Assembly (NCBI GenBank): GCA_016930695.1
Contig: JAFGGD010000055.1
Location: 1 to 64,000, forward strand
Length of the DNA stretch: 64,000 bases
Direction of reading: 5' to 3'
From: Candidatus Eisenbacteria bacterium
GTDB taxonomy: Bacteria; Orphanbacterota; Orphanbacteria; Orphanbacterales; Orphanbacteraceae
The stretch's first letter is position 1; the number at the start of each line of letters is the position of its first letter. The notes under the pieces are model-generated. The model did not search any database. It saw only the letters and a program-made list of their open reading frames with translations, and was not told the origin of the DNA. Position numbers and translations under genes: made by a program. Shown piece after piece: positions 44,480 to 49,430 of this stretch.

Positions 44480-45160
44480 ATGAGATTGCTAACGATCCTG
44501 GCTACGCTCGCCGCGCTTGGACTCCTTTTCGTTCCGGCGGCCGAGGCGGACCTGCTGCTGCTCGACTACTTCGGGTATGACTACACCACCCCCGCCCCCA
44601 GGGACTTCACTGCCGATGGACAGGAGTACATCGCCGTCGGTGATGTGACGGACATCAACCCGGCGGCGCTTGCGACGGACCCGCTGAACAACCAGTACAC
44701 CTTCGTGCTCCGCGCCGGGACGCTGACCTCCGCGGATACGGTGTGGACCCCCTTTGGAGACGTCGCCACCTACCAGTTCAATGACGGCGACGGTACCTTC
44801 CACATCTACGAGGACCCGATCGCGACCGGCACGGACCGGGATTGGGGATCCTATCCGCCGAACGTCACCGCCCCCGCCTATTTTGAAGACGGAACCTTGA
44901 TTCTGGGCGCCACTTTCACTAACTTGACCATTAAGGTGAAGCTGGCCGATTGGACCGCGAACCTGAACGGCACCCTCCACTTCTACTGCGGCGAGGGGTG
45001 GGGTTCGCTTCCCTGCTACGAGGGATGGACCTTCGCGGGTGAGACGATCGAGCCGGGACAGCCGGACGGCTACATGTGGACCATCGACGGTCTGGTTTAC
45101 GTCGAGGAAATCTCGACGGAAACGACCAGCTGGGGAGACCTGAAGGGCCTCTTCCGCTAG
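44480..45160 (+). CDS. Small secreted protein 1 with C-terminal W-[GS]-D-[LV]-K tag
   Basis: ATG 44480 follows GGGAGGAAGGG; 226 residues. It has a signal peptide to about residue 23 (VPAAEAD). The body is rich in Thr, Asp and aromatic residues, predicted all-beta (for example YTFVLRAGTLTSADTVW). I do not recognise the fold. The extreme C-terminus is ETTSWGDLKGLFR. The body resembles the next gene product (QYTFVLRAG versus EYTFIFQGL; FHIYEDP versus FAIYQDP), indicating an old tandem duplication. Confidence 0.85.
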   Translation: MRLLTILATLAALGLLFVPAAEADLLLLDYFGYDYTTPAPRDFTADGQEYIAVGDVTDINPAALATDPLNNQYTFVLRAGTLTSADTVWTPFGDVATYQFNDGDGTFHIYEDPIATGTDRDWGSYPPNVTAPAYFEDGTLILGATFTNLTIKVKLADWTANLNGTLHFYCGEGWGSLPCYEGWTFAGETIEPGQPDGYMWTIDGLVYVEEISTETTSWGDLKGLFR

Positions 45161-45187
45161 AGATGATCCGGGTTTTTAAGTACGATA

Positions 45188-45215
45188 GCGCCGGGTTCCA
45201 TGCCGGACCCGGCGC
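45188..45215 (+). terminator. Hairpin between the two paralogous secreted-protein genes
   Basis: GCGCCGGGT (45188-45196) pairs perfectly with ACCCGGCGC (45207-45215). No T-run follows, so it may be a processing or mRNA-stability hairpin rather than a terminator. Confidence 0.5.
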
Positions 45216-45251
45216 GGACTCAGGGCGTTCAGGATAGGGGGGTATCAACTT

Positions 45252-45968
45252 ATGCGAGATTTGCTAAGGCCGATCTTGCTGGGGGCGGTTTGCCTTTGGG
45301 CCGTCGTCCCGGCGTTCGCGGTGCAAGGAGTCATCATGGATTGGGCTCCGGACAGTTATGGATGGGAGACCATCTATAACCCCGTAACCCACATCAGCAC
45401 CGTGGGATCCGAGTTGACCGTTGTCGGCAAGATCGACGTGTTTTACGAGCCGTTCTTGGATCTCGACCCGGTCGCGACCGAATACACGTTCATTTTCCAG
45501 GGTCTCGTCTCCGACGGCACCCAAGATATCGGTAGCGGCATGCTGTACACGACCTACAGCGGCGGCTCCTTCGCCATTTATCAGGACCCGGCCAATAACG
45601 CCGATTTCGGCACGAATCCGCCGAACGCGGTTTCCCCGGCCACCTTCGTCGACGGCGATCTGATCCTCGAGGGGACGCTCTCCGGCTTCTTTGTCTGGGG
45701 ATCGACGGGTCCCGGCGGTTATGCCGCGACCTATCAGGCTGATTTCGAGTTCACCGGACCGATGGGCGACGAGAAAGCCCGCGGCGAGTTCTACGACCGC
45801 GTGCAGGGCTGCTACGGCACCACCGGCGGCGCCATTTCCGACGATCCCGGCATCGGGATTCCGATCGGATACAGCTATGTCGTGGATGGCCATCTGACCG
45901 TGGATGACTGCCGTCCCATCGGCACGGAAGACAGCAACTGGGGCGATGTGAAGCAGCTCTTCCGCTAG
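45252..45968 (+). CDS. Small secreted protein 2 with C-terminal W-[GS]-D-[LV]-K tag
   Basis: The protein has 238 residues; ATG 45252 has a GGGGGG site upstream. It has a signal peptide to about residue 23 (VPAFAVQ). A beta-rich body is homologous to the previous protein: TVVGKIDVFYEPFLDLDPVA, EYTFIFQGLVSDGT, GGSFAIYQDPANNADFGTNP and TFVDGDLILEGTL. Two or three cysteines are likely disulfide-bonded. The C-terminus is EDSNWGDVKQLFR. Function unknown; probably extracellular. Confidence 0.86.
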   Translation: MRDLLRPILLGAVCLWAVVPAFAVQGVIMDWAPDSYGWETIYNPVTHISTVGSELTVVGKIDVFYEPFLDLDPVATEYTFIFQGLVSDGTQDIGSGMLYTTYSGGSFAIYQDPANNADFGTNPPNAVSPATFVDGDLILEGTLSGFFVWGSTGPGGYAATYQADFEFTGPMGDEKARGEFYDRVQGCYGTTGGAISDDPGIGIPIGYSYVVDGHLTVDDCRPIGTEDSNWGDVKQLFR

Positions 45969-46006
45969 CACGAATACGCAGCAGCAGCATACAGGATCGT
46001 TGATCG

Positions 46007-46039
46007 GCCCCGGGGCTCATCCCGGGGCCGGTTTTTTTG
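46007..46039 (+). terminator. Intrinsic terminator after secreted protein 2
   Basis: GGCCCCGGG (46007-46015) and CCCGGGGCC (46022-46030), followed by GG and seven T bases. Confidence 0.93.
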
Positions 46040-46093
46040 CCCGCCGGCGGGCGGTGCGCCCGCTCGCCTCTCCTTGTCGTGTGCGTTCTAACC

Positions 46094-46122
46094 TGGTCTT
46101 TCGGGAAAAAATACGGTATAAT
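46094..46122 (+). promoter_or_regulatory. Promoter for secreted protein 3
   Basis: A perfect TATAAT at 46117-46122 has a weak -35 (TGGTCT, 46094-46099) at 17 bases, about 80 bases before the start. Confidence 0.5.
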
Positions 46123-46200
46123 GGTCGACATCTCGCCGGGTGGAAACCAGCCGGTTTTCATCGAGTCGTTGACGTGAAACATGTAAGAGGTCTTTCCGAC

Positions 46201-46746
46201 ATGCGGATTGCTGTGATTAGCCCCCTGGTCATTGGTCTGCTCATCGCCGCGCCGATCTTCGCGCAGACGGCGGTGATCGAACTCGATATAGACGGCGTAT
46301 CCGGAAACGGCCCCGACCTGTGGATGCCCTCCATCGGTGATTCGGTGGACGTGGATGTCCTCCTGTACGGCGACCCGCCCCCCGACGATGTCTGCTCCTT
46401 TTTTATCTCGGTCTTCGCGGCGGGTGACGTGGAATGTGCCCGTTGCGTCTACCGGACCCCTCCGGGATGGAGAACCACCACCCCTCGGAACGGCGACGGC
46501 CTCCTTCTTCAGGGGATGGACCCCACCTTCACATCCCCACTGCAGATGCCGGCCGTGATCGCCACGCTCACCCTCCGGGCGAGCGTCGTCGCCTCGGGGA
46601 GCGGGCTCCACATCGACGAGTCCAGCTGGTTCGCCACGGCGACCGGGAACCGCATCTACCCGGCCGTGGACGGCGGAGCGATCGAAATCGAGGCGCTCGC
46701 CGCCGAGAAGAGCTCCTGGAGCGACCTGAAACGCGCCTACCGTTAG
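46201..46746 (+). CDS. Small secreted protein 3 (cohesin-like body) with C-terminal W-[GS]-D-[LV]-K tag
   Basis: The 181 residues start at ATG 46201 (MRIAVISPLVIGLL), the only start followed directly by a signal peptide (ending IFAQT). The body differs from the two upstream proteins. MPSIGDSVDVDVLLYGDP and AVIATLTLRASV resemble cohesin or Ig-like secreted domains. Even so, it ends EKSSWSDLKRAYR, the same tail pattern. Three cysteines lie in VCSFF and VECARCVYR. Function unknown. Confidence 0.82.
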   Translation: MRIAVISPLVIGLLIAAPIFAQTAVIELDIDGVSGNGPDLWMPSIGDSVDVDVLLYGDPPPDDVCSFFISVFAAGDVECARCVYRTPPGWRTTTPRNGDGLLLQGMDPTFTSPLQMPAVIATLTLRASVVASGSGLHIDESSWFATATGNRIYPAVDGGAIEIEALAAEKSSWSDLKRAYR

Positions 46747-46928: not shown

Positions 46929-49430
46929 ATGAGACGATGGCTATCGCTGTTCATCGGAACCATCCTTCTGGTTCTCGGCGCGACCGCCACCGCGGCGATC
47001 GCGTCCGACGCGGACCGCGCGTTGCTCGCGGTCGAGGATCCGGCGCCCGAGTGGAAGGCGACACTTCTCCATGCCGGCGTGCCGGTGGTGCGCGATCTGG
47101 GCGGGTTCCTCCTCGTCGTCGCCGGTCCGGAGGAGGCCGCCCGCGTGAAGGCGCTCGGCATTCCCTCCGTGACGCTCGATTCCTCGACCGAGGGAAAGAC
47201 CTACTTCGTCGCCGGCCTCAGGGACGGCGCCCTCGTCGAGACGATCGAACGGCGCGTGCGGGTTCTCTATTTCGACGGCGGCAACGCCGTGATCGAGGCC
47301 TCGCCCGACGAGGCGGCCGCCATCGCCGAGCGGGGCATCGAACTCGCCCGTGTCTTCTTCCGGCCCGTCCGGCTCCCGTCGGAAGAGAAACCGGCCGCGG
47401 CGGCCCGCTCCCGCGCCGCGGATCCTTTCATCCAGCAAATGGTCGACTCGGTCGACATCGACGTCTTCGACGCGAACGTCCAGCGCATGCAGGATTTCGT
47501 GACCCGCTACTGCACCAGCGACAGCGGCGAAGCGGCGATGCACTGGATCAAGGCCGAGTACGAGTCCTACGGCATCGACAGCGTCTACATCCACGATTTC
47601 AACGCCTCCTACAACGGGAACGTGGTCGCCACCATCCCCGGCAAAGGGGACCCGAGCAAGATCGTGCTGATCGGCGGCCACTACGACTCCATCAACCCGA
47701 GCAACAACAACAACGCCCCCGGCGCGAACGACAACGCCACCGGCACCGCCTGCGCCATGGAGTGCGCCCGGGCGCTCGCCGGCTACGACTTCAACTACAC
47801 CCTCGTGTTCATGGCTTTCGGCGCCGAGGAGATCGGGCTCTACGGGAGCGACGGCTACGCGAGCATGGCCGCCGCCCGGGGGGATGACATCATCGCCGCC
47901 GTCGCGGTGGACATGATCGGCTATGTCGCCTCGGGCGATGCGATGGACCTGGACATCGTGGACAACGCCTCCTCCGAATGGATCCGCGATCTGGTCTTCC
48001 AGGCGGCGACGGACTACGTGCCCGGTTTCTCGGTCGTGGACGGCTACATCCCCTCCGGCGCGAGCAGCGACCACGCCTCCTTCTGGGACGCCGGTTACGA
48101 CGCCGTCCTCTTCTTCGAGGACAGCGACAACTACAGCCCCTACATTCACAGCGCCGACGACGTGGTGGGGCTCTCCTACAACTCGCCCGCGCTCGCCGAG
48201 AATTCGGTGAAGCTGGCGGTGGCGACCATCGCTTCCATCGCCGAACCCTTCACCCTCGGCATCGTGCATGAGCCGCTCACGGACACGGAAAACACCTCCG
48301 ACCCGTACACGGTGACGGCGACGGTCAACGCCGCCGGCACGCTCGACACCGACTCGCTCCTGGTGCGCTACGATATCGGCTCCGGCTGGAACGAGATTCC
48401 CCTCGAGCCGTCGGGAGGGGCGGGCGAGTACGAGGCGGAGATACCGGCCCAACCGGGCGGCACCTTCGTGGATTACTATCTGCTCGCCTCCGACGAGAGC
48501 GGCAACCGAAAGACCCATCCCGCCGGCGCCCCGGCGGAGACCCACTCCTTCTTCGTCGGCGCCATCACGTCCTTCTACTCCGACGACTTCGAGAGCGATC
48601 AGGGATGGACGGTGGGAGCGGAGGGCGACGACGCCACGACGGGGATCTGGGAGCGGGGGGATCCGCAGGGGACGACCAGCGGCGGCCAGGTGCAGCCCGA
48701 GGACGACCACACTCCGGCGCCGGGCGTGAATTGCTACGTCACGGGCCGCCTCGCCGGGACGAGCGCCGGCTCCTACGACATCGACGGCGGCATAACGACC
48801 CTCCTCTCACCCGTCTTCGATCTCTCCGCCTACAATCGCGCCGGCGTCTCCTACTGGCGTTGGTACACGAACAGCATGGGAGCGAGCCCCGGCGAGGACG
48901 ACTGGCGGGTCTCGGTGAACGACGGCTCCGGTTGGGTCGATCTGGAAAACACCACCGAGAGCCGGAACAGCTGGACCGAGATGGTCTTCCGCCTGGACGA
49001 GGTGATCGATCTCACCTCTACCGTACAGTTCCGCTTCATCGCCGGCGACGAAGGCTCCGGCTCGTTGGTCGAGGCGGCGCTCGACGATTTCGCGATTTTC
49101 CTCTACGAGGAGATCTCCACGGGCGTCGCCGGGAACGGGACGGGGGCGCCGGCACGCGTCGCCATCACGGGCAACGCGCCGAACCCCTTCAACCCGACCA
49201 CCGTCATCCGTTACACCCTTCCGGAGAGGAGCGACGTGCGGCTCGATCTCTACGACGTGAACGGACGGCTGGTGCGTGCGCTCGTCCGCGGCGCGCGGGA
49301 CGCCGGCGATCGGGAAACGGTTTGGGACGGCCGCAACGACCGGGGGGAACCGGTCGCCTCCGGCGTCTACCTCTGCCGCCTGCGGGCGGGCGACCGTGGG
49401 GACAGCCGCAAGATCGTGCTTCTCCGGTAA
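46929..49430 (+). CDS. Secreted M28-family zinc aminopeptidase with FlgD-like tail
   Basis: The protein has 833 residues; ATG 46929 follows AGGAG. A signal peptide ends near residue 25 (AAIASD). The M28 catalytic domain (about residues 170-440) has the zinc ligands in VLIGGHYDSINP, GANDNATGTA, FGAEEIGLYGSDG and YSPYIHSADD. A beta-sandwich domain (Ig-like, about 450-550) and a jelly-roll/MAM-like domain (FESDQGWTVG) follow. The final FlgD-like domain is ITGNAPNPFNPTTVIRYTLP to SGVYLCRLRAG. It is probably a secreted or surface peptidase feeding amino acids to the cell. Confidence 0.92.
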   Translation: MRRWLSLFIGTILLVLGATATAAIASDADRALLAVEDPAPEWKATLLHAGVPVVRDLGGFLLVVAGPEEAARVKALGIPSVTLDSSTEGKTYFVAGLRDGALVETIERRVRVLYFDGGNAVIEASPDEAAAIAERGIELARVFFRPVRLPSEEKPAAAARSRAADPFIQQMVDSVDIDVFDANVQRMQDFVTRYCTSDSGEAAMHWIKAEYESYGIDSVYIHDFNASYNGNVVATIPGKGDPSKIVLIGGHYDSINPSNNNNAPGANDNATGTACAMECARALAGYDFNYTLVFMAFGAEEIGLYGSDGYASMAAARGDDIIAAVAVDMIGYVASGDAMDLDIVDNASSEWIRDLVFQAATDYVPGFSVVDGYIPSGASSDHASFWDAGYDAVLFFEDSDNYSPYIHSADDVVGLSYNSPALAENSVKLAVATIASIAEPFTLGIVHEPLTDTENTSDPYTVTATVNAAGTLDTDSLLVRYDIGSGWNEIPLEPSGGAGEYEAEIPAQPGGTFVDYYLLASDESGNRKTHPAGAPAETHSFFVGAITSFYSDDFESDQGWTVGAEGDDATTGIWERGDPQGTTSGGQVQPEDDHTPAPGVNCYVTGRLAGTSAGSYDIDGGITTLLSPVFDLSAYNRAGVSYWRWYTNSMGASPGEDDWRVSVNDGSGWVDLENTTESRNSWTEMVFRLDEVIDLTSTVQFRFIAGDEGSGSLVEAALDDFAIFLYEEISTGVAGNGTGAPARVAITGNAPNPFNPTTVIRYTLPERSDVRLDLYDVNGRLVRALVRGARDAGDRETVWDGRNDRGEPVASGVYLCRLRAGDRGDSRKIVLLR

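Follow-up and report, generated by a model that had tools for sequence, protein, structure and literature searches.

A short conserved C-terminal tail on secreted proteins of unrelated bodies, a candidate sorting signal in bacteria with SprA

The window (the whole stretch of Candidatus Eisenbacteria DNA that was analysed, 64,000 nucleotides) contains three adjacent genes for secreted proteins that share a C-terminal tail, directly followed in all three by a TAG stop codon (Table 1). The coordinates and ends reported in a first-pass annotation of this DNA were confirmed, and a simple script likewise recovered Sec-type signal peptides on all three proteins. The start of protein 3 was set at ATG 46201, although its longest open reading frame begins at a TTG (46000), because the signal peptide arises from the ATG. 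Proteins 1 and 2 are homologues by BLAST and were therefore counted as one body family. Protein 1 has no Pfam or NCBIfam match, and among the 106 tailed proteins described below its body has BLAST homology to protein 2 only. Protein 3 was annotated as having an unrelated body, and it does belong to a separate, cohesin-like family with homologues in its own and related genomes. Its structure model has low confidence and is too poor for use, with an isolated helix at the tail. The body of protein 2 (45252-45968) very weakly resembles PepA (E 0.004), a flocculation-associated PEP-CTERM protein; this is once more a body seen with a different C-terminal tag. The neighbouring M28 peptidase matches TIGR04183, the sorting domain of type A in the type IX secretion system (T9SS), with 25.9 bits against an NCBIfam cut-off of 23, and its FlgD-like tail is indeed of a different kind, as had been noted.

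Table 1. Positions of the tailed genes, their tails and the adjacent peptidase gene in the window.
Feature	Positions	Strand	Details
Tailed secreted protein 1	44480..45160	+	226 aa, signal peptide ~44480-44548
Protein 1 C-terminal tail and stop	45119..45160	+	ETTSWGDLKGLFR
Tailed secreted protein 2	45252..45968	+	238 aa, signal peptide ~45252-45320
Protein 2 C-terminal tail and stop	45927..45968	+	EDSNWGDVKQLFR
Tailed secreted protein 3	46201..46746	+	181 aa from ATG 46201, cohesin-like body, signal peptide ~46201-46263
Protein 3 C-terminal tail and stop	46705..46746	+	EKSSWSDLKRAYR
Neighbouring secreted M28 peptidase	46929..49430	+	FlgD_ig / T9SS type A tail ~49206-49388, other tail class

For the anatomy of the tail, 106 tailed proteins were gathered from 10 genomes. 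Their logo from -13 to -1 reads E x x [ST] W G x [VIL] K x [LM] [FY] R, and the consensus of the proposed signal is accordingly E-x-x-[ST]-W-G-x-[VIL]-K-x-[LM]-[FY]-R-COOH. The invariance of W, [VIL], K, [FY] and R is built in, as these were preset by the search pattern; E(-13), [ST](-10), G(-8) and L/M(-3) were not. G occupies -8 in 90 of the 106 proteins and the remainder have S or T. No membrane helix is visible in the logo, in agreement with the first reading of the three window proteins. The tail matched no Pfam or NCBIfam model and no description of it was found in a literature search covering open-licence papers. A helix is weakly predicted for it, and its amphipathicity is suggestive only: column shuffles equalled the observed hydrophobic moment in 29 of 200 cases.

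The bodies in front of the tail are diverse. With signal peptide and tail removed, the 106 proteins fell into 57 BLAST clusters, 16 of which include proteins of the own genome, and the earlier claim that the tail is conserved beyond duplication therefore holds. Body families include beta-helix, FN3, LTD, X25/CBM20, PPC, plastocyanin, NHL propeller and choice-of-anchor A, J and X domains (the last group was named by NCBI for its co-occurrence with varied surface anchors). In an alignment of 99 tailed proteins W, K and R are invariant in the tail, the mean column identity is 7%, and the bodies have almost nothing in common besides the tail. No longer folded domain that includes the tail is common to all carriers. 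A signal peptide was found by a simple script filter in 98 of the 106 proteins (24 of 25 in the own genome); the tail is nearly confined to such proteins, and none of the outcomes that the first-pass annotation had named as refuting came about.

The abundance of the tail was determined by searching DNA for the pattern W-x-x-[VIL]-K-x-x-[FY]-R-stop, with the same pattern reversed as a control. This is one exact form of the motif and the tail counts are therefore lower bounds. The own genome (G000, 3.78 Mb) has 25 matches, far above the roughly 0.3 expected by chance (a uniform-base estimate), and the reversed control has 0. When the WG form was searched in the same genome without the stop codon, 24 of the 27 matches were found at a stop, and the motif is therefore tied to the C-terminus. 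One of the WG matches ends ...WGKIKSLFRD-stop. A single internal copy, GGASWGGIKALFRGSGTRK in L131 (G000 C27:2318-2343, - strand), lies in an open reading frame that continues further, and it is the only clearly non-terminal copy seen in this genome. G045 (L090, L051), in which SprA gives a weak match, has FN3 and LamG-like proteins with variant tails, ...LTTRWGELKSQD and ...VTTTWGNVKEAYR. The variants, TTTWGNVKEAYR and TTRWGELKSQD, suggest that the motif may have wider forms than the pattern searched.

The tail is not limited to the three window genes or to their genome, and hundreds of copies occur elsewhere. Among 98 genomes scanned, each of the six further members of this family has 23-76 tails (controls 0-2). 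Three other phylum-level lineages are represented by G031 with 38 tails, G072 with 18 and G075 with 34 (controls 0-2), and all 20 genomes examined from the phylum of G075 have 23-82. A separate scan of a contig collection for the tail pattern gave 4 matches, which is below the chance estimate, and that scan therefore appears insensitive.

In other genomes the tail is found on one protein only. G007, G013, G051, G057 and G080 each encode one clear tailed protein of 130-148 aa, with a signal peptide, an FN3-like body and the ending ...TWGSIKA[ML]FR. The bodies in this set are 31-38% identical to the first, and the nearly invariant tail is the most conserved part of the protein. Of 40 genomes from the phylum of G080, 25 carry a single match, none carries two and those of family f96 have no match; the consensus of the 25 orthologues is PNISGIFRTWGAIKAMFR. 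In an AlphaFold model of the single-copy protein the FN3-like body is confident and the last ~14 residues have a pLDDT of ~53 with a hint of helix; the tail is thus a linear element outside the fold. In G007 the gene adjoins porD, with a porV/Q-like gene close by, and in G057 it is near porQ-like and C25-peptidase-like genes. Most of the single-copy loci examined have no T9SS neighbours.

The distribution of the tail falls within that of SprA, the T9SS translocon pore. SprA was scored in 80 genomes with TIGR04189 at the cut-off of the model and exceeded it in 23, including all 15 genomes with a clear tail. Counted by lineage, the tail is present in 9 of 17 SprA-positive lineages and in 0 of 57 SprA-negative ones (Fisher p 2e-7). 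If SprA is counted by E-value instead of the cut-off, the numbers are 10/28 and 0/46 (p 2e-5). Each of the 15 clear-tail genomes has 10-23 PorV_fam matches, and FlgD_ig tails are also abundant in tailed genomes, with 124 matches in G000. The presence of SprA does not demand the tail: G009, G059 and family f96 (7 genomes) are among the SprA-positive lineages without it, and in the phylum of G080 SprA was found in 30 of 30 genomes tested, the tail-less f96 included. The correlation may partly stem from the shared ancestry of the SprA-bearing phyla.

After the counts, the most telling result is a swap of tails on related bodies. The cohesin-like protein L185:85-2463 (G002), which has a FlgD_ig tail, is homologous to window protein 3 (E 7e-8). 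The beta-helix protein L189:533-2320 has a FlgD_ig-type tail and matches a tailed protein of G075 with E 1e-40, and the FN3 domains of L111, L112 and L088 stand before type-A-like tails. The beta-helix and FN3 swaps are weaker than the cohesin-like one because both are common repeats or domains. The tailed proteins themselves have no match to TIGR04183 or PF18962. As homologous bodies carry FlgD_ig-type tails, the short tail sits in the slot of the T9SS sorting domain.

A sorting role of the tail is well supported. The first-pass annotation had likened it to tags such as PEP-CTERM or type IX tails, and its picture of a fixed tail on variable secreted bodies is strongly supported. The co-occurrence with SprA and the tail swap argue for an alternative signal in T9SS-bearing bacteria more than for a free-standing PEP-CTERM-like system. 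The explanation that is favoured here, with restrained confidence, is that the tail acts as a short linear C-terminal sorting signal, either feeding T9SS or running parallel to it. A tailed protein would first be exported by Sec. Its tail, which probably forms a capped mini-helix ending in a free Arg, would then dock in the periplasm or the SprA pore with a PorV/PorP-type T9SS shuttle barrel or a similar outer-membrane receptor, and the docked protein would be carried across or onto the outer membrane. About 13 residues would take the place of a folded C-terminal domain (CTD) of 70-100 residues.

Known T9SS signals of types A, B and C have ~70-100 residues or more (PMC10994853, PMC10202324), and a signal of 13 residues would therefore be unprecedented. 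Type A CTDs are read by PorV and those of type B by PorP/SprF-like proteins (PMC10994853, PMC12618676). The tail resembles type A CTDs (PF18962 / TIGR04183, and the PF13860 FlgD_ig tails) in its C-terminal position on diverse Sec-exported proteins, dozens per genome, and it occurs on the same bodies and in the same SprA-bearing genomes. Both also have a conserved Lys near the end and the last residue of type A CTDs is often basic. In type A structures a Lys near the C-terminus is the one near-invariant contact residue, and it touches PorV (PMC10994853); by analogy, the Lys at -5 of the tail may be comparable. However, the type A CTD is a folded beta-sandwich, whereas the tail consists of ~13 residues, W-G-x-[VI]-K-x-x-[FY]-R, outside folded domains. 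Type B and C CTDs are likewise alternative C-terminal T9SS signals, and type B has its own PorP/SprF-like shuttles (PMC12618676, PMC9143113), but these CTDs contain several motifs over ~100 residues or more (PMC10202324) and the tail matches neither. A more specific proposal, a minimal T9SS signal class of ~13 unfolded residues with a free Arg end and its own outer-membrane shuttle, carried by the single-copy FN3-like protein in several phyla and by dozens of proteins in others, is more tentative. The tail is probably a new C-terminal sorting signal, and there is a fair chance that it represents a T9SS signal class of its own.

The strongest competing explanation, although an unlikely one, is that the tail serves for docking or anchoring and not for export. 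Tailed proteins would arrive at the cell surface or in the periplasm by some other route, and the tail would then bind a fixed partner such as an outer-membrane barrel, a scaffold or an S-layer-like protein. The tail is short, with a charged free C-terminus and fixed W, K and R, and in this it is like a peptide ligand; the bodies resemble adhesive, carbohydrate-binding and choice-of-anchor modules, and a processing enzyme was not found. However, T9SS-type tails on the same bodies and the restriction of the tail to SprA lineages point to the export pathway itself. T9SS shuttles also determine the final place of a protein (PMC12618676), and the docking and export readings are therefore close.

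It is improbable that the tail is instead the recognition site of a dedicated protease or transpeptidase that would act independently of T9SS and would trim or modify the C-terminus as exosortase, rhombosortase or PorU do. The likeness to many-to-one CTERM/sortase systems speaks for it, with the targets numbering dozens per genome in certain phyla and just one in others. PEP-CTERM/exosortase and GlyGly-CTERM/rhombosortase substrates are likewise numerous unrelated secreted proteins that share a constant C-terminal sequence, with choice-of-anchor bodies among them, and MYXO-CTERM/myxosortase tags dozens of proteins at the C-terminus throughout a phylum (PMC11980579). In PEP-CTERM and GlyGly-CTERM, however, a signature is followed by a transmembrane helix and a basic cluster and is served by a membrane protease, while the tail has no transmembrane segment ahead of its basic end. 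MYXO-CTERM has three parts and includes an invariant Cys and a transmembrane segment, both of which are missing from the tail. The annotation had expected one co-occurring processing enzyme, an expectation that was disappointed: no cognate receptor or dedicated enzyme for the tail was found in the tailed genomes. Exosortase (PF09721) is encoded in only 2 of 15 tailed genomes and not in G000; missing from the other 13, it was rejected as the partner. In the neighbourhoods of the single-copy gene no recurrent enzyme is common to all, and the neighbours that do recur (an RND-adaptor-like gene, a 202-aa secreted protein and patatin-Omp85) were rejected as clade-specific. Genes for PMT_2-TPR glycosyltransferases seemed to recur near tailed genes but were also rejected, because their proximity was unconvincing (p 0.04 for 3 kb and 0.66 for 10 kb) and the own genome has 40 PMT_2-type glycosyltransferase matches, some of them in TPR-repeat proteins.

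Very little speaks for the tail as a leftover of common ancestry, that is, one gene family which duplicated and whose bodies diverged past recognition. Tandem paralogues do occur among the carriers (window proteins 1 and 2, cohesin-like genes in L128), but clearly different bodies, among them beta-helix, FN3, plastocyanin, NHL propeller, LTD and choice-of-anchor A, refute this reading and leave only local duplications; the tail is also conserved across phyla against the low overall identity of the alignment. A chance or composition artefact of GC-rich DNA, which only the shortness of the tail would favour, is practically refuted by the controls (0-2 reversed matches per genome against 18-82 tails) and by codon differences, as other lineages encode the same amino acids with different codons.

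If the favoured reading of a short sorting signal linked to T9SS is true, the signal is far smaller than any known for T9SS and is located in little-studied phyla whose surface proteins now escape prediction. Hundreds of hypothetical proteins could then be assigned to the cell surface, and the tail could provide a minimal tag for display. It would also raise the question of what the SprA/PorV machinery actually reads. The single-copy FN3-like carrier would be a clear entry point where it is the sole tailed protein in the genomes of a phylum.

Several observations on gene content accompany these results. The exosortase genes of the two tailed genomes that have them are G072:C3:91125-91895 and G075:C11:18346-19098, and two tag systems may coexist there. 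An M28-type (glutaminyl-cyclase/aminopeptidase-like) gene, L114:9008-9997, lies directly beside sprA. Such a gene is found beside sprA in 6 of 7 tailed genomes viewed, from three phylum-level lineages (homologues L115, L116, L118, L119 and L120). In one clade (L225, L226, L232, L233) the single-copy gene comes after a conserved run of genes for a 170-200-aa membrane protein, a ~220-aa GGGDWYGNRTTF protein and a ~1140-aa membrane protein, then patatin-Omp85.
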